From: Polyangiaceae bacterium
GTDB taxonomy: Bacteria > Myxococcota_A > Polyangia > Polyangiales > Polyangiaceae
Length of the DNA stretch: 64,000 nucleotides
Assembly: GCA_029266615.1 (NCBI GenBank)
Contig: JAQSWN010000031.1
Location: forward strand, 1 to 64,000
Direction: 5' to 3'
Position numbers and translations under genes: made by a program. The notes under the pieces were generated by a model. The model worked only from the letters and a program-made list of their open reading frames with translations. It did no database searches and had not been told where the DNA came from. This document shows positions 4,566-64,000 of the stretch, in pieces (position 1 is the first letter of the stretch; each line of letters starts with the position of its first letter).

Positions 4566-5426
4566 TCACGGGCGCGAAGCGCCGTCTGCGCTCTCCGCGC
4601 CGTCCGCAGGCGATTCCAGCGGGTGCAAGCCGCTGCGTGCAGCGGCTCGGCGCGCGCGCGCCTCGAGCGCGTCCAGCGACGATGCCCCGAGGTGGGCGGC
4701 CATGTCGGGCGTCTCCATGTCGATGTCTTCGGCGCGGACGTTGACTTCCTCCACTTCGACCGGCCCTTCCAGCGGCGCGTCCTCGAAGGTGAGCACGTGG
4801 TCGAACAGATTGTCGGCGTTGGCAAACTCGGCAAGAAGGGGGGTCAATTCCGCGCCTTTGAGCGCGCGCACCCCGACCCGCATCGCTTCATTCAACGTCG
4901 CGCGGACGCCGTCACCGTTCGCGGCGTTGGACGAGATCATCGGAATCGAGCCGTCTAGCCTCAGCTTGCGCCGAAGCACGGCGGGAGTCAGCGCGCCCTC
5001 TACGTCTTGCTTGTTCGCTTGCACGATCAGGCTCACCGGCTCCGTGCGGCGCTTGATGGAGGCGCGCAGGCGGGCAAAAGTGCGCTGCGTGTCCGCGATG
5101 GCTCCGGGGCTCGAGTCGCAGACGAACACGACGACGTCCGCCATGGCCACGAGTGGCCGGCGCCGGTAGTTGCGCTCGATCTGACCCGGGACGGTGATGA
5201 GCTGGAAATAGAGCCCGACGCCGCCTTGGCGCGGCCCCTCGATCTCCAACCAATCGAAGAACATGGTGCGGCCTTTGAGCTCGGCCGGAGTTACGATCTC
5301 GCTGCGCCGACTGGGCGGAATGATTTCGTGCACACGCTTCAGGTTCGTCGTCTTGCCCGCGAAGCCGGGGCCGTCGTAGACGATGCGCACCACGTGGCAC
5401 TTCCGCTCGGAATCGAAGGACGCCAT
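4566..5426 (-). CDS. MglA-like small Ras-type GTPase with a C-terminal extension
   Basis: This is a 286-residue GTPase of the bacterial Ras-like MglA group, which acts in cell polarity and motility in Myxococcus. Visible motifs are the P-loop GPGFAGKTTN (residues 19-28), the MglA-type switch TVPGQ in place of the usual DxxG, and NKQD for guanine recognition. MglA itself is about 195 residues. Here an extra acidic tail of about 90 residues follows, with EVEEVNVRAEDIDMETPDM in it. A longer frame reaches ATG 5480, but I chose ATG 5426 because it puts the P-loop the same distance from the N-terminus as in MglA. No mglB-like (Roadblock) partner is adjacent. It is divergent from the TM2-domain gene. 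Confidence 0.88.
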   Translation of the reverse strand: MASFDSERKCHVVRIVYDGPGFAGKTTNLKRVHEIIPPSRRSEIVTPAELKGRTMFFDWLEIEGPRQGGVGLYFQLITVPGQIERNYRRRPLVAMADVVVFVCDSSPGAIADTQRTFARLRASIKRRTEPVSLIVQANKQDVEGALTPAVLRRKLRLDGSIPMISSNAANGDGVRATLNEAMRVGVRALKGAELTPLLAEFANADNLFDHVLTFEDAPLEGPVEVEEVNVRAEDIDMETPDMAAHLGASSLDALEARARRAAARSGLHPLESPADGAESADGASRP

Positions 5427-5480
5427 ATCACTTGCTAACGCGGGCACGGCTTGCGCCGCAAGGGCGCCGCCACACCACAT

Positions 5481-5505
5481 CTGGATAATGCCGCGACATA
5501 TCCAG
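5481..5505. promoter_or_regulatory. Operator-like inverted repeat between divergent genes
   Basis: CTGGATA and TATCCAG form a perfect 7-bp inverted repeat around an 11-bp spacer. It sits in the 125-bp region between the GTPase gene (start 5426, leftward) and the TM2 gene (start 5552, rightward). A second weaker pair, GCCGC and GCGGC, brackets its right half. The geometry (18 bp centre to centre) suits a dimeric regulator serving both genes. No protein is known to bind it. Confidence 0.35.
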
Positions 5506-5551
5506 TGATTGCGGCAATTTACAGCCCAATGTTCGTTTGATACGTTGCGCC

Positions 5552-6157
5552 ATGTCGTACGGATCGCCGCCAGGGCCGGGTGGATATGGACAGCCGCCCG
5601 GTGGCTACGGACCTCCGGGCCCCGGCGGCTACGGCCCGCCGCCCGCGGGCAGTTACGGCTACGGGCACAACCCGTACGCGGCGCCCGTGTTCGACCAGAG
5701 TCTGGCGATCACGGGTGAGTCGGAGAAGACACGCGCCACCGCGTTCGTGCTCGCTTACGTGCCCGCCATGTTCCTCATCAGCGGCATCGATCGCTTTTAC
5801 CGAGGGCAGGTCCTGCTCGGCATCCTCAAGCTGCTGACCTTGGGCGGCTTCGGCCTGTGGACGCTCATCGATTGGGTCCTGCTCGCGGTGGGCGAGCCAA
5901 AGGACAGCGACGGCAGGCCGCTGTCGATGCCCCGGGAAGTAGTGGGCACACCAACCGTCAACGGCAACCACGTATTACTCGCGGGTGTTCTGGCCGGCAC
6001 GTTCGGAGTGGACCGCTTCATGCTCGGTCAAACTGGCCTCGGCATTCTCAAGCTCATCACTTGCGGCGGCTTCGGCCTGTGGCACGTCATCGACGTCATC
6101 TTGTGCGCCACTGGAAGTTTGCGGGACGCCCAGGGCAATTCGCTGCGCTGGCGCTGA
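5552..6157 (+). CDS. Double TM2-domain membrane protein with a Gly/Pro/Tyr-rich N-terminus
   Basis: The protein (201 residues) begins with about 45 residues of GGYGPP-type low-complexity sequence, followed by two copies of a TM2 domain at about residues 60-115 and 135-195. Both carry the family signature G(I/V)DRF, then LGILKL(L/I)T and GGFGLW..ID. Each TM2 domain is two helices with a short DRF turn, so four membrane segments are expected, with the glycine-rich arm in the cytoplasm. TM2 proteins usually have one copy, so the tandem is unusual. The molecular role of the family in bacteria is not established. I use ATG 5552 because the longer frame needs a TTG 15 bp upstream. Confidence 0.85.
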   Translation: MSYGSPPGPGGYGQPPGGYGPPGPGGYGPPPAGSYGYGHNPYAAPVFDQSLAITGESEKTRATAFVLAYVPAMFLISGIDRFYRGQVLLGILKLLTLGGFGLWTLIDWVLLAVGEPKDSDGRPLSMPREVVGTPTVNGNHVLLAGVLAGTFGVDRFMLGQTGLGILKLITCGGFGLWHVIDVILCATGSLRDAQGNSLRWR

Positions 6158-6194
6158 GGCGGGCTTGCTTCCGCGCTAATTCGCGCTTTTTGTG

Positions 6195-6222
6195 GTTGTG
6201 GTATCGGTTCCCGCTGGCATAG
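6195..6222 (+). promoter_or_regulatory. Candidate promoter for the cysteine-rich lipoprotein
   Basis: TTGTGG and CATAGT are 16 bp apart, a plausible -35/-10 pair for a housekeeping sigma factor, though neither box is perfect. The -10 box ends about 11 bp before the ATG at 6233, so the transcript would have almost no leader. Confidence 0.3.
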
Positions 6223-6232
6223 TCCGCGGAAC

Positions 6233-6754
6233 ATGCGGCGCTTGCTTTCGGCCGTCGGCTTCGCGCTCTCACTGAGCGTTGGCCTCTTCGGCTGCAACGA
6301 TCACGACTACTGCGGCGCGGGCGAGCCCTGCGAGTGCAGCAACACCACGGACTGTTACTTCGGCTGCGACGAAGACGGCTGCAACCCGCGGTGCTTCCAG
6401 ATGAACCACTGCGGCATGGTGTGCGAAGACGACTGCCATTCGGAGTGCTTCGAAGTACAGGAGTGTAGCACCGTCTGTGGCAACGACTGCAGCTTCGACT
6501 GCCACAACACCAACGCCTGCGGGATGGAATGCGGGGACAACTGCAATCTGAACTGCCACGACACCGACCGCTGCGGAGCCGTGGTCGGTACCGGTAGCGT
6601 CGTGCGCTGCGCCAACGTCACCACCTGCGCGATCGAGTGCACGGGCGCCTGCAAAGTGGAATGCGTTTCCGTCAACGACTGCAACGTGACGTGCGTAGGC
6701 GGCGGGGAGACCCAGTGCAGCGACGGCAACATCGCCTGTGGAGGTTGTTCGTGA
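6233..6754 (+). CDS. Cysteine-rich lipoprotein built of 18-residue modules
   Basis: This 173-residue protein has a lipoprotein signal peptide ending in the lipobox LFGC (Cys21). The mature part is extraordinarily rich in cysteine: 31 in the whole protein. They follow a regular module, C-x3-C-x3-C-x3-C-x5, of 18 residues, repeated in four nearly perfect copies between residues 40 and 110 and more loosely to the end. Spacers are rich in Asp, Asn and Glu. Such spacing suggests a disulfide-stacked fold or a metal-binding surface protein, but I know no named family. The downstream outer-membrane gene starts within its stop codon (GTGA), so both are made together. Confidence 0.8.
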   Translation: MRRLLSAVGFALSLSVGLFGCNDHDYCGAGEPCECSNTTDCYFGCDEDGCNPRCFQMNHCGMVCEDDCHSECFEVQECSTVCGNDCSFDCHNTNACGMECGDNCNLNCHDTDRCGAVVGTGSVVRCANVTTCAIECTGACKVECVSVNDCNVTCVGGGETQCSDGNIACGGCS

Positions 6755-7371
6755 ACCGTCGATTCCTTCGCGCGATCCTACCCGCGCTCTTCGCGTCGCT
6801 TTACCTGTGCTTCGCGCTCCCGGCCCACGCGCAGAGCACGATTAAGCGCCCGGGAGACCGCCCCGACTACGCTTTCGAGCTGGAGCCGCACCTAGCGCTC
6901 GGCTTGCTCGATCCGCCGGGTTACGGCGGCGGGACCGGCTTCGGCTTCGGCGTCCGAGGCAGCGTGGAAATCGTGAAGAACGGCTTCATTCCGAAGCTCA
7001 ACAACTCGGTCGCGATCGGGTTTGGCTTGGACTACCTCCGCTACGACGGCTGGCAGGGTCCGCGCGGCTACTGCGAGGAGCGCGGGTCCGGTCCTGCGGG
7101 CGTGCCGATCTGCCGGCGCATCTCGGGCGGCGCAGACGGGGACATCGACTACTTCTTCGTGCCGGTGGTCATGCAGTGGAACTTCTGGCTCCACAAGCGC
7201 TGGTCCGTCTTCGGTGAGCCCGGCGTCGCGCTCTACGTTCAAGACGGCGACGTCAAATTCAACCCGTTCGTCTTCTATGCAGGTGGTCGCTTCCACCTTA
7301 CGGATCGCGTCACCCTCACCGCGCGCGTCGGCTACCCGACCCTCTCGTTCGGCGTCTCCTTCCTGTTCTGA
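6751..7371 (+). CDS. Predicted outer-membrane beta-barrel protein
   Basis: The 206-residue product has a Sec signal peptide (residues 1-27, cleavage after AHA) and ends in SFGVSFLF. That terminal aromatic beta-strand is typical of proteins inserted by the BAM complex. The body alternates short amphipathic strands (VGFGLDYLRY, FFVPVVMQW, VFGEPGVALYV), consistent with a small barrel of eight or so strands. I chose GTG 6751 over longer frames. It overlaps the upstream stop as GTGA, has GGAGG at 6740-6744 with good spacing, and puts the signal peptide at the N-terminus. Coupling to the cysteine-rich lipoprotein suggests both act at the outer membrane. Confidence 0.82.
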   Translation: MNRRFLRAILPALFASLYLCFALPAHAQSTIKRPGDRPDYAFELEPHLALGLLDPPGYGGGTGFGFGVRGSVEIVKNGFIPKLNNSVAIGFGLDYLRYDGWQGPRGYCEERGSGPAGVPICRRISGGADGDIDYFFVPVVMQWNFWLHKRWSVFGEPGVALYVQDGDVKFNPFVFYAGGRFHLTDRVTLTARVGYPTLSFGVSFLF

Positions 7372-59112: not shown

Positions 59113-59664
59113 GTGCTTTTGGATTCGGCTCGGTCCGCCCTCCTCGCCTACACCCCGGTAGATCCGCGCGAGTCTTCGTTCAAAAAGCGGATGCTAGACC
59201 TGCTCGAGGTGGCGACGCCCACGTCGCGGCATCAGTTCACGCCCGGTCACCTGACCGCGAGCGCCTTCGTGCTGTCCCCCGAGCAAGACGCCGTTCTCCT
59301 GATCTTCCACAAGAAGTTGAGGATTTGGGTGCAGCCGGGTGGGCACGTCGAACCGGCGGATGAAACGCTGGTCGCCGCGGCCCGCCGCGAGGTCGAGGAG
59401 GAGGTCGGCCTCGCCCTGTCCGCGGATGGTGCGGCGGCGGTGTTCGATCTGGACGTTCACCCCATTCCGGCACGCAAGGACGAGCCCGAGCACGAGCACT
59501 TCGACGTGCGCTATTGCTTCCGCTCGCCCACACGCGAGTTCGTGCTCACCGACGAGGTCGCCGACGTGCGCTGGGCTCCCCTCGCGCACCTCGAGGATCT
59601 GACGACCGATGAATCCGTGCTGCGAGCCGCACGCAAGCTCCGAGCACTGGGGGAGGCGCGATGA
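59113..59664 (+). CDS. NUDIX hydrolase
   Basis: This 183-residue protein has the NUDIX box at GGHVEPADETLVAAARREVEEEVG. The metal-binding REVEEEVG is intact, but the spacing between the first Gly and the first Glu is one residue longer than the consensus. The flanking pattern WVQPGGHVE and FDVRYCF is typical. It would hydrolyse a nucleoside diphosphate linked to another moiety. I chose GTG 59113 (AAAAGG upstream) because it starts at VLLDSARSALLAYTPVDPRE, the usual N-terminus of this subgroup. Its stop overlaps the next ATG (ATGA). Confidence 0.88.
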   Translation: MLLDSARSALLAYTPVDPRESSFKKRMLDLLEVATPTSRHQFTPGHLTASAFVLSPEQDAVLLIFHKKLRIWVQPGGHVEPADETLVAAARREVEEEVGLALSADGAAAVFDLDVHPIPARKDEPEHEHFDVRYCFRSPTREFVLTDEVADVRWAPLAHLEDLTTDESVLRAARKLRALGEAR

Positions 59665-60800
59665 CCGAGCAGGAGCGACGCCCCACGGCGCGGTTCTTTG
59701 CCACCGCCGCCAAAGGCACCGAGCCGCTGCTGCGCGACGAGCTGCACGAGCTGGGACTTCGTCGCGTGCGCGCCGACCGTGGCGGCGTGCACTTCGGCGC
59801 CGAGCTTTCGGACGCCTACCGGGCGTGCCTCTGGTCGCGCATCGCGCTGCGGGTGCTGGAGCCGCTGGTCGAGTTTGCGTGCCCTCACGAAGATGCCCTT
59901 TACGAGGGCGTAAAAGGCGTTGACTGGACGCGAGTGCTCGACGCGCGGCGCACGCTCGCAGTGCGCGCCGCATGCCGCTCGAGCCGTCTCACGCACACGC
60001 AGTACATTGCGCAGCGCACTAAGGACGCGGTGGTGGACCAGCTGCGCGAGCGCCTCGGCGCGAGGCCAAGCGTGGATCGCCAAGATCCGGACGTTCAGCT
60101 GTTCGTCCACCTCGTCAAGGATCGCGCCACCATCTATTTGGACCATTCGGGAGACTCGCTTCACGCGCACGGCTTCCGCGCGGCGCAAGGGGCAGCTCCG
60201 ATCAAAGAGACGCTCGCCTCCGCGCTCGTGCGCTACTCCGGCTGGGACCGGGAGTCACCGCTGGTGGATCCGATGTGCGGCTCCGGCACGCTGCTCCTCG
60301 AGGCGGGGCTGTGGGCGGCGCGGCGCGCGCCCGGCCTCGCGCGAAGCGACTTCGGCTTCGAGCGCTGGGCCGACTTCGATGACCAGGCCCGCGCCACCAT
60401 CACCCGCCTCCGTGAGGAGGCGCGCGACGCGGCCAAGCCGCTGTCCCTCTCCCTCATCGGTTCCGACACGGACGCGGGCGCGTTGGAGGCCGCTCGGGCC
60501 AACGCAGAGCAGGCGGGCTTACGCGTCAACCTGAGGCTCGCGCCGGTAACGAGCGCCGCGCCGAGCGCGGATGGCGGCGGGCTGGTGGTGAATCCCCCTT
60601 ACGGAGAGCGGCTCCGCCGCGACGAAAACCTCGGTGCGGATCTCGCCAAGGTGCTGCAGCGCTTCGAAGCCTACGAACGCGCGTTGATCGTGCCGCGTCA
60701 GTTCGACCTGCCGCTACGCGCCGATAAGTTCTTGATGGTGTTCAACGGCGCGATCGAGTGCGAGCTGCGCCGCTACGAAGCGAGGCGCGTCACGCCCTGA
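59661..60800 (+). CDS. THUMP-domain RNA methyltransferase (RlmL N-terminal-half type)
   Basis: The 379-residue enzyme has an N-terminal ferredoxin-like/THUMP region (FFATAAKGTEPLLRDEL; THUMP about 45-160) and a class I methyltransferase with DPMCGSGTLLLEA (SAM loop), SDTDAGALEAA and the catalytic NPPYGER. It corresponds to the RlmL (YcbY) N-terminal half, which makes m2G2445 in 23S rRNA. The RlmK half is absent, as in many bacteria. Translational coupling to the NUDIX gene is by ATGA overlap. It converges on the RecQ-like gene with 11 bp overlap. Confidence 0.9.
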   Translation: MTEQERRPTARFFATAAKGTEPLLRDELHELGLRRVRADRGGVHFGAELSDAYRACLWSRIALRVLEPLVEFACPHEDALYEGVKGVDWTRVLDARRTLAVRAACRSSRLTHTQYIAQRTKDAVVDQLRERLGARPSVDRQDPDVQLFVHLVKDRATIYLDHSGDSLHAHGFRAAQGAAPIKETLASALVRYSGWDRESPLVDPMCGSGTLLLEAGLWAARRAPGLARSDFGFERWADFDDQARATITRLREEARDAAKPLSLSLIGSDTDAGALEAARANAEQAGLRVNLRLAPVTSAAPSADGGGLVVNPPYGERLRRDENLGADLAKVLQRFEAYERALIVPRQFDLPLRADKFLMVFNGAIECELRRYEARRVTP

Positions 60801-62493
60801 CGTAGCGCGGCAGGGACGAGTCCTCTGGCGCCGCCGCCGGCGCGGTACCGTGGCGACTCGTGACGTAACGCGCAACCAGCTCGGCACGCCCGGCGTCTGC
60901 CGCGCGTAGCGCCGCGAAACGCGAGGAGAGCAAGCGAGCGTCCGCGACCAGCTGCTCGGGCGTGGTGCGTCGGCAGATCTGTGCACCGTCACGCACGACG
61001 AGGTTTCGGTCGGCGAAGGCGCCCAGCACGCGCTCCGCGCTCCGTCGACTCGTGCCAGCGCGCAGGGCCAGCGTGTCCGCCGGAGCGGACCTGTCATCCG
61101 CGAGCTGCGCGAGCACTTGCGCCATCGCTTCCACCGCAGCCGGCTTGATGCGTTGTTGCGCCAGCAGTGCCTGCACCAGGGCCGCGTCGCTCGAGTCCGC
61201 CAAGACGAGTGAGCTTTTCCCGGCCGCAAGCCAGGCCAAGTCCTCGAACAGTTGCTCGGGAGAGAGCGGCGCCTGGTAATGAACCACGAAATTCAAATCG
61301 GGGCGGGGCGCGACGCTGCCGAGGCAGTAGCTCACCTCCGGACACCCCGCGAGCCCCGTGGCGTTGGCGTGCGGGCTCTGCGTGACGAGCACCAGCTGCT
61401 CGTGCGCGTCCGTGAAGCGACGAAGCGAAGCGGTGCGCTCCGCGGGCGCCATGCCCGCGTGAGCGCGCACGCATGGCACTTTGCGCGAGGAAAGCTCGGC
61501 GAAGACCGCGTCCGCCTCTTGAGCGGTCGCGGTGAGCACGACGCCGGGCGCCCCATACGCCAAAATTCCGGCTAAAAGCGCGCTTTTGCGCTCGGCGGAG
61601 CGCACGACTTGGGCGCTCTGTGAGAGCTCGGGCGGCGCTGCAGCGAGGACGGCGCTGGACTTGGCGCCGATGGCCTCTGCCGCTTGGTCCACGACACGCG
61701 CACTCGTGGCCGTGCACGTCGCGAGGACGGGGGCGCCAAACGCGGCCAACGCGTCCTTCAAGCTGAAGTACGCGGGCGAGAGCTCGTGGGCGTGCTCCGA
61801 ACAAGCGTGGGCAGCCGCGATGCCGAGCAGCGCGAGCGGGGCCTTCGCGACTACCTCGTGCAGCGCCGGGTCCAGCAGCTGAGCCGGCTCCACCACGACG
61901 AGGAGCGGCCCGCCGCGCGCCAACCGACGCTTGCTGGCGGCGGCCGTGTCCGGCGAGACGAAGGTGCCGAACGCCGCGACGTCCAACCCCGGGAGTAGAG
62001 CAGCGTGCTCGACCAGCTCCGCCGCGAGCGGCGAAACGACCAAGACCGGCTGACGTGCCACACTCGCAGCCGCCGCGAAGATGGCGGCGTCCCGGGCGCG
62101 CGGGGAATTGGTGAGGAGCGTTGGCTCGCCCGCCAGAGCTTGGCGAACGGCGCGCTGCTCTTCCACCCGCAGCGCCACGAGCAAAGGTGAGCTGGCGAGT
62201 GGAGGAGCGAGCTTCGGCAATACCGGCTTTGCGTCCGTGGCCTTCGCAGCCGCGGGCTTCCCAGGCGCGCGCTTTTCAACCGCGGGCTTTGCGGGTTTCT
62301 TCGGCGCGGGCGGGAGGGGACGAGCTGCGAGCGGCACGACCTTGGCGGGCGCCTTCGAGGCGCGAGCGGCGACCTTGGACGGGGAGGCTGAACGTCCGGC
62401 AGCCTTTTTGGCCGGGGCCGCCTTCGTTTGCGTTTTCTTGCTCGAACCAGGCCTCGACGCCGATGTGCGCGTAGCCTTTACGGAATTTGCCAT
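60790..62493 (-). CDS. RecQ-like protein with all helicase catalytic motifs lost and an H1-like tail
   Basis: Residues 1-95 are Lys/Ala/Pro-rich like histone H1 (AAPAKKAAG, PAPKKPAKPA). From about residue 108 the chain follows RecQ helicase order, but key residues are gone. The Walker A place reads TNSPRARD (near 128-135, normally PTGxGKS), and motif Ia VVSPL is kept. The DEAH box is AAAH in GIAAAHACSEHAHELSPAY (225-242, normally DEAHC.S.WGHDFRP). Motif III keeps TATSARV, and the motif IV region is recognisable (VVLTATAQEADAV, HAGMAPAERTASLRRF). Motif VI reads AWLAAGKS instead of GRAGRDG. A winged-helix-like end follows (TSRRSAERVLGAFADRNLVV). It is probably a DNA-binding pseudo-helicase. ATG 62493. 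Confidence 0.8.
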   Translation of the reverse strand: MANSVKATRTSASRPGSSKKTQTKAAPAKKAAGRSASPSKVAARASKAPAKVVPLAARPLPPAPKKPAKPAVEKRAPGKPAAAKATDAKPVLPKLAPPLASSPLLVALRVEEQRAVRQALAGEPTLLTNSPRARDAAIFAAAASVARQPVLVVSPLAAELVEHAALLPGLDVAAFGTFVSPDTAAASKRRLARGGPLLVVVEPAQLLDPALHEVVAKAPLALLGIAAAHACSEHAHELSPAYFSLKDALAAFGAPVLATCTATSARVVDQAAEAIGAKSSAVLAAAPPELSQSAQVVRSAERKSALLAGILAYGAPGVVLTATAQEADAVFAELSSRKVPCVRAHAGMAPAERTASLRRFTDAHEQLVLVTQSPHANATGLAGCPEVSYCLGSVAPRPDLNFVVHYQAPLSPEQLFEDLAWLAAGKSSLVLADSSDAALVQALLAQQRIKPAAVEAMAQVLAQLADDRSAPADTLALRAGTSRRSAERVLGAFADRNLVVRDGAQICRRTTPEQLVADARLLSSRFAALRAADAGRAELVARYVTSRHGTAPAAAPEDSSLPRYVRA

Positions 62494-62615: not shown

Positions 62616-63617
62616 ATGAGTGCGCTCTTCGGCTTCTTTCCCGCGCTCGCCGGCCGGGTGCACCACGCGGTGTTGGCCGAGCTGCCGACTCGTGTCGAGC
62701 AAGCGGACGGCGTGCTCCGCGGCGCAGACATCTGGTTGAAGCGCGACGACACGTCGTCGCCCGTTTACGGTGGCACCAAGCTGCGCTTGCTCGAGCATCT
62801 GCTGGGAGCGGCTCGAGCTGCGGGCGCGACGCGCGTCTACTCCACGGGCGCCGTCGGCTCCAACTTCGCGGAAGCGACCGCGCTCCACGCGCCACGCGTC
62901 GCGCTCGCGCCAGGTGCGATCTGTTTTCCCCAACCGCTCACCGACGAAGCGGCGCGTAGCCATCGCGTGGTGCAGGCCCGCGCGCAAGTGATGGAGATCC
63001 CGCACTGGAGCCTGCTCCTGCTCGCGACCGAACGCGTGCGGCGCAGTGACCCGGGAGCGTGCGTGCTGTCCCAAGTGAGCTTCGATGCCGAGAGCTTGTT
63101 CGGCTACGTAGCGGCGGGCTTGGAGCTCGCGCTGCAAATCGAGGCGAAAGAGTGCCCAAGCCCCGCGCGCGTGGTGTTGCCCATAGGCTCCGCCGCCACC
63201 AGCGCCGGACTGTTGGCGGGCCTGTCATTGGCTCGAAAAATGGGCCTCTTACGGAGCGCGATCACGGTGTGCGCCGTGCGTATCGCCGCCTGGCCTCTGT
63301 CTCGGCGGGGTCGCGTGCTGTCCCTGGCGACGACCTCACTGTCGTGGCTTTCGCGCCTGACCGGCGAGCCGCGACTCGCTCTTCCGAAGGGTGACCTGCT
63401 ACCGCTGGAGCTGGTCACCGATCAACTCGGGGTCGGCTATCCGCACGCCACGCCCGAAGGCTCCCGCGCGCGCCACGTGTTCGCCGATGCCGGCTATCCA
63501 ATCTTGGACGACACTTACTCGGCGAAAGCCGCCGCTCACGTCCTCGCGACCGCGCAAGGGGCAGGCCCGGTGCTGCTCTGGTGCACGAAGTCGAGCGCGG
63601 GCACTCCCCTGGACTAG
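62616..63617 (+). CDS. PLP enzyme of the ACC deaminase / D-cysteine desulfhydrase family
   Basis: This 333-residue fold-type II PLP protein has WLKRDDTSSPVYGGTKLR, with PLP lysine Lys55. Family members have GGNK here, so the Asn is replaced by Thr. TGAVGSNFAEATALHA is the cofactor-contacting loop, VVLPIGSAATSAGLLAGL binds the PLP phosphate, and DDTYSAKAAAHVLA lies near the end. Activity on D-cysteine, ACC or another amino acid cannot be told apart by eye. The Asn-to-Thr change and a long variable middle argue for another substrate. ATG 62616; it converges with the next gene by 4 bp. Confidence 0.85.
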   Translation: MSALFGFFPALAGRVHHAVLAELPTRVEQADGVLRGADIWLKRDDTSSPVYGGTKLRLLEHLLGAARAAGATRVYSTGAVGSNFAEATALHAPRVALAPGAICFPQPLTDEAARSHRVVQARAQVMEIPHWSLLLLATERVRRSDPGACVLSQVSFDAESLFGYVAAGLELALQIEAKECPSPARVVLPIGSAATSAGLLAGLSLARKMGLLRSAITVCAVRIAAWPLSRRGRVLSLATTSLSWLSRLTGEPRLALPKGDLLPLELVTDQLGVGYPHATPEGSRARHVFADAGYPILDDTYSAKAAAHVLATAQGAGPVLLWCTKSSAGTPLD

Positions 63618-64000
63618 ACGGGCGGCTTGGACTTCATCACGCCGGAGAGCGTCTGCATCAGCGCGCGGTCCACGCGTTGGTAGTAGCCGCGCAGCGCCGC
63701 GAGGGCGGCATCCTCCTCGCCACGCTCGATAGAGCTCGCGACGTCCCGCAAGTGCTGCGGAAAGCTCGGCTCCAGCACCCACAGCGCGGGGAAGCGATCC
63801 AAAAGCTCGCGGTAAGCATCCAAAAACGGGTTCGCGATCCAACGCACCGCGACGGAATGTCCGGCCTCGATGATGGCGTCCAGCCACCGTTGAAAGCCGT
63901 GCGCGATCACGACCGGGTCCCCCCGGTCGAACGCGGCGATGAGCAGATCCGTGATGTCTCGGATGCGGGTCACGTCCTGCGGCGCCGCGCGCTGCGCCGC
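63614..64000 (-). CDS. C-terminal part of a GntR-family (FCD-type) regulator, cut by the window edge
   Basis: The leftward frame is open to the end of the window, giving about 128 residues, all helical: ITDLLIAAFDRGDPVVIAHGFQRWLDAI, NPFLDAYRELLDRFPALW and IERGEEDAALAALRGYYQRVDRAL. Helix lengths and the R-G-(D/E)-x2-A-A-x2-A-L-R-x-Y-Y pattern resemble the ligand-binding FCD/FadR C-terminal domain. The DNA-binding part would lie beyond 64000. GTG 63973 is probably internal rather than the start. Confidence 0.55.
   Translation of the reverse strand, partial: AAQRAAPQDVTRIRDITDLLIAAFDRGDPVVIAHGFQRWLDAIIEAGHSVAVRWIANPFLDAYRELLDRFPALWVLEPSFPQHLRDVASSIERGEEDAALAALRGYYQRVDRALMQTLSGVMKSKPPV

Follow-up and report, generated by a model that had tools for sequence, protein, structure and literature searches.

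We have analyzed a stretch of 64,000 nucleotides from the genome of a Polyangiaceae bacterium (assembly GCA_029266615.1, contig JAQSWN010000031.1, positions 1 to 64,000), hereafter the window, and found in it a gene (60790..62493, minus strand) coding for a protein of RecQ type in which the ATPase and helicase motifs have been erased. The RecQ helicases, motors of genome stability, are widely conserved. The protein, which we call pseudo-RecQ, belongs to this family by sequence and by predicted fold, the erosion of its ATPase and helicase motifs extends over a whole clade of homologues, and the core of the window gene is under selection. A pseudohelicase is characterized by a predicted helicase fold whose motifs are vestigial and which selection has kept, and pseudo-RecQ answers to that description. 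Judging from the residues lost, it would be unable to hydrolyse ATP or to unwind DNA.

The gene has an ATG start and codes for 567 amino acids without internal stop. A first-pass annotation, made from the letters alone, had given its extent exactly and had described it as uninterrupted; the gene is on the minus strand, and the Lys/Ala/Pro-rich stretch that it presented as an added tail of 95 residues is N-terminal, not C-terminal. Codon use, called normal there, lies at the low end, with a difference in GC content between third and second codon positions of 0.23 against 0.23-0.38 in the neighbouring frames, which were themselves chosen by the same measure. The claimed collinearity with RecQ is borne out by the NCBIfam profile TIGR01389 (recQ), that matches residues 151-456 with an E value of 8.9e-17, and by a phmmer search of the PDB, in which the top match was the RecQ of Deinococcus radiodurans (E 2.7e-9, residues 143-446). 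The TIGR01389 score was 60.7 bits versus a curated cut-off of 640.2, about one tenth, so that the threshold of the active-RecQ profile is not reached, and the Pfam Helicase_C score (19.7) was also below its cut-off of 23.5. At the level of residues, the GxGKS of Walker A, the DEAH box, the arginines of the motif VI GRxGRD and the zinc cysteines of active RecQs are all missing from the window protein.

Following the protein from its N-terminus (all coordinates are on the minus strand), the Lys/Ala/Pro-rich, histone-H1-like tail occupies residues 1-98 (62200..62493), with 23 K/R versus 2 D/E (K17, R6, A26, P17, D1, E1). The RecA1-like domain follows at residues ~105-290 (61624..62181, approximate bounds), with motifs I and II erased. 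As the first-pass annotation had claimed, NSPRARD (residues 129-135, 62089..62109), AAAH and AWLAAGK occupy the positions expected for Walker A, DEAH and GRAGRDG. AAAH sits within IAAAHAC, starting at residue 225, in the stretch IAAAHACSEHAHELSPAY (61768..61821), from which the tryptophan of the aromatic-rich loop is gone too. Motif III, also listed there as conserved, survives only in part, as TCTATS, shifted by one position from TATAT. The RecA2-like domain (residues ~291-440, 61174..61623, approximate bounds) contains a motif V stretch with an insertion (61279..61386) and the motif VI position YQAPLSPEQLFEDLAWLAAGK (61216..61278), where the arginines are lost and AWLAAGK falls within residues 406-426. 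A possible winged-helix segment comes next (residues 452-518, 60940..61140; Pfam PF25213, E 1.2e-5, under its cut-off), and the protein ends with the stretch corresponding to the RecQ zinc-cysteine position (60793..60885), here without these cysteines. The motif V insertion, the extra, weakly winged-helix-like segment in the region between motif VI and the zinc position, and the loss of the zinc cysteines are additions to the first description. Standard RecQs carry a winged helix and an HRDC domain after the zinc domain. Pfam found no HRDC in the window protein, which ends at the zinc position, or in the 16 members of the eroded clade described below.

We searched for relatives in order to establish how far the erosion extends. 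Among 97 related genomes, an orthologue of 81% identity was found in the same genus (L002, the window gene being L001); the remoter homologues had ~23-34% identity, and matches appeared in 91 of the 97 genomes, mostly to ordinary RecQs. Wider searches covered 108 genomes of the family, 183 of the order and 377 of the phylum, with loci taken from the best 30 matches of each (for the phylum, 30 of 87 matching genomes), together with a scan of the contigs of named genomes that brought 67 loci. The motif comparisons are based on the 134 distinct cores obtained from 174 loci. Eroded motifs were found in 16 of the 134, one per genome in 16 genomes, all of them from the bacterial family of the window, so that the eroded gene is present in at least 16 of the family's 108 genomes; there may be further carriers within or beyond the family. 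Three carriers have names: a lichen metagenome bin of Myxococcales (L085) matches L004, a bin labelled Sorangium sp. (L142) matches L003 and a Polyangiaceae bin (L146) matches L009. The NCBIfam recQ profile matches all 16 members. So do the PADLOC models of DpdF and PsyrT, a comparison run on the eroded members with no intact RecQ as control and which may reflect general RecQ likeness. A part in a defence system was considered on this account; annotation of the locus covered the recurrent neighbours and some of those in the window. The first-pass annotation had proposed orthologues as a check on its reading: L002 has identical NSPRARD and AAAH, and the wider clade carries its own eroded versions instead of intact motifs. 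Sequencing error or local decay of the window gene is ruled out by this orthologue with the same erased motifs, by the presence of the eroded gene in 16 genomes and by its low ratio of nonsynonymous to synonymous change (dN/dS, see below). As a side observation, short RecQs also occur under the record titles Klebsiella pneumoniae (L105) and Spirochaeta sp. (L100). L105 groups with genes from genomes labelled Deltaproteobacteria and L100 is the same as L156, from a genome classed in the phylum of the window, and both records are probably mislabelled metagenome bins.

The motifs were compared among the 16 eroded proteins, 77 intact sisters and 41 other RecQs, with fragments reducing the last two denominators to 75-77 and 39-41. 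The Walker A lysine is present in 2 of 16 eroded members versus 76/76 sisters and 39/39 other RecQs, and DEAH in none versus 77/77 and 39/39, three members having EEAH instead (L004, L011 and L013). The T-A-T columns of motif III are absent from all 16 and present in all 77 sisters, while the tryptophan of the aromatic-rich loop persists in two eroded members versus 77/77 sisters. By aligned column, the first arginine of motif VI is found in only one member of the clade, the second in nine. The motif V segment measures 15-27 residues in 15 of the 16, versus 5 in every one of the 77 sisters, that is, an insertion of 10-22 residues. The exception is L037, the most diverged eroded member (4795-7257 in genome G049), which has no insertion; it has EEAQ at motif II, the zinc cysteines and a long basic N-terminal tail. 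All four RecQ zinc cysteines are retained in 13/16 (L001 and L002 have lost them and L059 ends at a contig edge). Identity among the eroded proteins, expressed relative to that among the sisters, had its minimum between motifs II and III (0.41) and its maximum in RecA2 around motif IV (0.67), being low again in RecA2 between motifs V and VI (0.49); these figures exclude L059, L037 and the near-copy L002. The Walker A sequence persists in L013 (genome G028, GAGKS) and L061 (G099, GQGKS), in both cases without DEAH or the first motif VI arginine. Since the lysine kept by these two is missing from L053 and L057, their sisters with moderate support (87/94), erosion was probably stepwise, with Walker A lost more than once.

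A tree of 44 rows put the 11 eroded members then known in one clade (100/100). After removal of the columns of motifs I, II, III, V and VI, a tree of 59 rows chosen from the 134 (all 16 eroded, 33 sisters, of which 30 were random and the rest named, and 10 other RecQs) again gave one clade with the 16 eroded proteins (100/100), placed beside the intact short RecQs. Several unrelated decays are thus ruled out, with the caveat that L025, L059, L037, L003 and L017 have long branches, for which the tree tool issues a warning where they meet, and that L037 fills less than half of the columns. The shared insertion and the shared gene block (see below) give separate support to a single origin.

In the short RecQs, such as L005 and L086 (genomes labelled Myxococcota/Deltaproteobacteria and Binatia), the two RecA-like domains come in the same order as in pseudo-RecQ. 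They have a motif VI-zinc spacing of ~133 and are its closest relatives in the tree. This spacing was 129-136 residues in 15/16 eroded proteins and 132-135 in 75/77 sisters, versus 55 in the standard RecQ of the window genome; stretches of ~130 residues are found in short RecQs including the intact ones (L031, L030, L086 and related). The extra stretch of the intact paralogue L031 matches winged-helix families above their cut-offs, and no such match appeared in four sisters tested by Pfam; together with weak Pfam matches in a few eroded members, this makes a winged helix possible in pseudo-RecQ. What sets pseudo-RecQ apart from the short RecQs is the erosion of its catalytic motifs, the motif V insertion, the loss of charge in RecA2 and, in the window pair, the absence of zinc cysteines. 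Neither is it, by sequence, the only RecQ of the cell. A separate intact recQ had been another of the suggested checks, and the window genome has two, a standard RecQ with HRDC (L032) and a short one (L031). Members of the genus (G006, G003 and G002) have intact RecQs as well (L033, L034, L040 and L042).

We estimated selection by simple Nei-Gojobori dN/dS values. For the core of L001/L002 the value was 0.082 (bootstrap 0.057-0.111), to be compared, in the same two genomes, with 0.109 (0.079-0.152) for the intact short RecQ and 0.052 for the standard RecQ; another intact pair gave 0.119. By regions, RecA2 had the minimum (0.035), followed by the winged-helix region (0.071), RecA1 (0.098), the C-terminus (0.16) and the tail (0.58). 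No stop was found within the matched core of any of the 16 eroded members, while a crude neutral simulation of the core (500 runs) gave a mean of 5.2 premature stops and zero stops in only 0.8% of the runs. Purifying selection on the core of the window gene is therefore strong, and constraint is weaker in other lineages.

Structure prediction, also among the proposed checks, gave a consistent picture. The AlphaFold2 model of the window protein without its tail (472 residues) had a predicted local distance difference test score (pLDDT) of 78 and a predicted TM-score (pTM) of 0.74, and that of the lichen-bin member L085 (541 residues) reached 84.8 and 0.82. In Foldseek, all 50 listed PDB matches of each model were RecQ-family proteins, a result that is aided by alignments rich in intact RecQs. 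The best match of the window model was the D. radiodurans RecQ (4q47, E 1.8e-16), and those of L085 the RecQ cores 4tmu (E 1.5e-26) and 1oyw (E 1.0e-25). The models thus indicate that two RecA-like domains of RecQ type are present. The TM-scores of the window model by query length were modest (0.32-0.65) and the root mean square deviations went from 3 to 20 A, a spread suggesting that the orientation of the domains is probably poorly fixed; pLDDT was below 50 for the motif V insertion in both models.

Two features of charge were also noted. N-terminal of the core, a 60-residue window with net charge between +15 and +31 was found in 13 of the 16 eroded members, the exceptions being L003 and L004, cut at contig ends, and L059, which reaches +11 in a frame with uncertain start. 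The repeats in these tails are often PAKK, KAPAKK or VRKKAP. The N-termini of L025, L017, L012 and L057 carry short repeats that are nearly perfect (VRKKAP, KAPAKK, PPAKK, KKVVA) and vary from species to species, which suggests a rapid tandem-repeat turnover of the tail. The second feature is the net charge of RecA2, that goes from +9.1 (standard deviation 2.5) in the sisters to -1.2 (standard deviation 3.4) in the eroded proteins, with a RecA1 mean of +0.3 in both. The loss would speak against normal tracking of single strands across RecA2 and fits a DNA contact moved to the tail.

The pseudohelicase reading of the first-pass annotation is strongly supported by the fold match and the clade-wide motif loss, and its further suggestion of a DNA-binding protein with a nucleoid or recombination role would fit the basic tail and the proximity of comM or recA in some carriers, but not the lost positive charge of RecA2. 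The interpretation to which we incline, with a little more belief than doubt, sees in pseudo-RecQ a pseudohelicase that descends from a short RecQ and is independent of ATP, with the tail on DNA and the RecQ body as a platform. In this model the basic N-terminal tail would hold the protein on DNA without choice of sequence, and the RecQ body (RecA2, the possible winged helix and, in most members, the zinc finger) would recognise a DNA structure or a protein partner. The protein might then play an architectural or regulatory part in recombination or repair, perhaps by taking up sites or partners of the RecQs that are active in the same cell. A more sweeping version, to which we give slightly less than even weight, is that the whole gene group went from RecQ to an ATP-independent chromatin-like protein, with the motor switched off, a loop gained at motif V, DNA contact passed from RecA2 to the H1-like tail and the body serving as platform; if this is true, it would represent the first pseudoenzyme family of RecQ type. 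The selection kept on the gene and its histone-like tail suggest that the RecQ shape has been reused for something besides the unwinding of DNA.

Several observations weigh against an ATP-independent DNA-bound platform. The zinc cysteines are gone from the window pair, and L013 and L061 may still be able to bind ATP. With the loss of RecA2 charge, the body may differ from RecQ in its binding of DNA. A basic tail is no mark of the eroded clade, since the intact L005 and some other sisters have one too (+26 in L005) and others are acidic there (40 of the 77 sisters inspected); tail composition was compared within the family only. Intact sisters make up most of the alignments behind the models (37 of 41 rows and 20 of 24), which makes the prediction lean towards RecQ. 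Nine of the 16 carriers have no comM in the stretch covered, some of them on short contigs, and the surrounding block includes metabolic genes, so that a gene close to comM and recA does not have to share their pathway. Finally, the patchy presence of the gene (at least 16 of 108 family genomes) and its fast change (29% identity between G000 and G003, versus 58% for the standard RecQ) indicate that it is dispensable, and dN/dS was 0.276 (0.221-0.339) in the eroded pair L053/L057 and 0.51 and 0.45 in two further pairs at dS above 1.1.

Among other explanations, the one that survives best, although we hold it to be rather unlikely, is a protein-interaction scaffold without need of DNA. The dead RecQ body, chiefly RecA2, would bind a partner such as an active RecQ, RecA, ComM or SSB, the basic tail being a general element of solubility or localisation. 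RecA2 is indeed the region with the lowest dN/dS of the window pair, its positive charge has disappeared clade-wide and the shared insertion is located there. In RecQ the zinc cysteines are part of a DNA-binding module, and their retention in 13/16 members, with the preceding segment in 15/16 and a basic tail recurring in 13/16, weighs against a pure scaffold. We consider improbable a sequence reader of the RecC/AddB kind, in which the inactive helicase fold would recognise a DNA signal in complex with an active motor. The insertion marks the second RecA-like domain, as happens with domain 2A of AddB and RecC, and recA or comM is near the gene in 7/16 carriers; yet RecC and AddB are superfamily 1 proteins, while RecQ is superfamily 2, no motor gene recurs alongside apart from comM in those seven, the RecA2 charge is lost, and so fast a change of sequence is ill-suited to reading one fixed signal. 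Even less credit goes to an ATPase still active through displaced and unrecognised motifs, as GxGKS in L013 and L061, EEAH in L004, L011 and L013 and the shifted TCTATS of the window protein could indicate, given that the window pair has nothing like a P-loop at motif I, AAAH at motif II and no motif VI arginines, and that DEAH is found in none of the 16. A functionless relic of a short RecQ undergoing decay, in line with the patchy presence, fast divergence, graded lineage-specific motif loss and the higher ratios of the other eroded pairs (0.28, and 0.51 and 0.45), is close to refuted for the window gene by its core dN/dS of 0.08 (upper bootstrap bound 0.11), the stop-free matched cores in 16/16 and the shared insertion and gene block.

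There are known systems with partial resemblance. One is the PriA of D. radiodurans, also a bacterial DNA helicase with motifs eroded in one lineage and the gene retained, which shows neither ATP hydrolysis nor unwinding, keeps DNA binding and has evidence of interaction with DnaB (PMC4504706); catalysis lost with binding of DNA and partners retained would make pseudo-RecQ similar. PriA is from another helicase family and its DNA binding, DnaB interaction and lack of ATPase were measured (PMC4504706), whereas pseudo-RecQ is known from sequence and models. The Utp25 pseudohelicase shares vestigial motifs in a predicted helicase fold, but it is a DEAD-box-like ribosome assembly factor of eukaryotes (PMC9539457). 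Inactivated helicase folds are also found in AddB and RecC, where domain 2A has a unique insertion (PMC4824097), so that they share with pseudo-RecQ a dead fold, an added element and a putative use in recombination; they differ in being superfamily 1 members and part of a Chi-reading motor complex. As for the tail, the CarD of Myxococcus xanthus, also a myxobacterium, joins a basic disordered tail, replaceable by histone H1, to a folded interaction domain (PMC8156234). It differs in that the folded part is a CarD domain and not RecQ, the tail is C-terminal with AT hooks and the protein is a transcription factor (PMC8156234). A basic low-complexity tail of matching composition is present in the window protein, its DNA contact being putative, and the Pfam search of the protein gave no CarD/CdnL/TRCF domain. 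The division of labour proposed here would resemble that of CarD, with an H1/HMGA-like disordered tail binding DNA and a folded hub for protein interactions. Full-text searches of the open-access literature, which do not amount to proof, gave no published RecQ pseudohelicase or pseudoenzyme among the papers listed. While pseudohelicases and RecQ are both known, we have come across no family of RecQ pseudohelicases. The concept of pseudohelicase, a term that a full-text search met in three open-access papers only (PMC9539457, PMC4504706 and PMC9825169), would be extended to RecQ, with sixteen genomes and intact sister genes for comparison. A clade with the RecQ shape minus the ATPase motifs is a natural separation-of-function experiment that would reveal structural roles of RecQ.

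We have also examined the gene neighbourhood. In the window, a gene for an RlmKL-like THUMP methyltransferase (59661..60800, plus strand) lies tail to tail with pseudo-RecQ, overlapping its 3' end by 11 bp (60790-60800). On the other side are the divergently oriented gene of a pyridoxal phosphate-dependent (PALP) enzyme (62616..63617, plus strand) and that of a GntR-family regulator (63614..64000, minus strand; assigned from the Pfam match of a 66% relative), which runs beyond the window end and belongs to a conserved block. Beyond it, the contig carries comM at 69653-71203. Over stretches of 6.8-19.9 kb, at least two genes of one block were found near pseudo-RecQ in 13 of the 16 carriers. The block comprises recA, comM, an isocitrate/isopropylmalate-type dehydrogenase, CHAD, an MpaB-like oxygenase and pseudo-RecQ, and also an acyltransferase or class-V aminotransferase, an epimerase, a GMC oxidoreductase, a small protein and GntR. 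In G003 the order is pseudo-RecQ, dehydrogenase, comM, recA. Within the stretches, comM was found in 7/16 carriers and recA in 5/16, which only hints at a functional link. No block genes appeared in three carriers, G002 and G049 (contigs of ~7 kb) and G014 (20 kb covered). The automatic choice of open reading frames missed the pseudo-RecQ frame in L183 (G014) and L037; the later block comparison excluded L176, L183 and L037, and an earlier one had covered these three without match.

The surroundings of comM were inspected in eight genomes without a strong match, and no eroded gene was seen, coverage being only partial in G001 and G005, with comM at contig ends. Several block genes were present at the comM loci of G013 and G124 and one in that of G004; G020 had no comM match. 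Neither recA nor comM was seen at 64 intact loci or at the L005 locus of G013, within at most 6 kb per side and at many loci less, which is weak evidence because comM is more than 6 kb away in four of the seven comM carriers. The idea that the intact L005 represents the ancestor still standing at this locus finds no support, since the comM-recA block covered in G013 does not contain it and L005 is on another contig. Inheritance in place with repeated loss appears to be the likeliest history. Besides, an epimerase of the block type occurs within the stretch of 6 carriers, and epimerases with 38-47% identity are found near 8 intact short RecQ loci (L088, L117, L120, L124, L135, L136, L139 and L140), a recurrence that may be due to chance or may go back to an older neighbourhood common to both.

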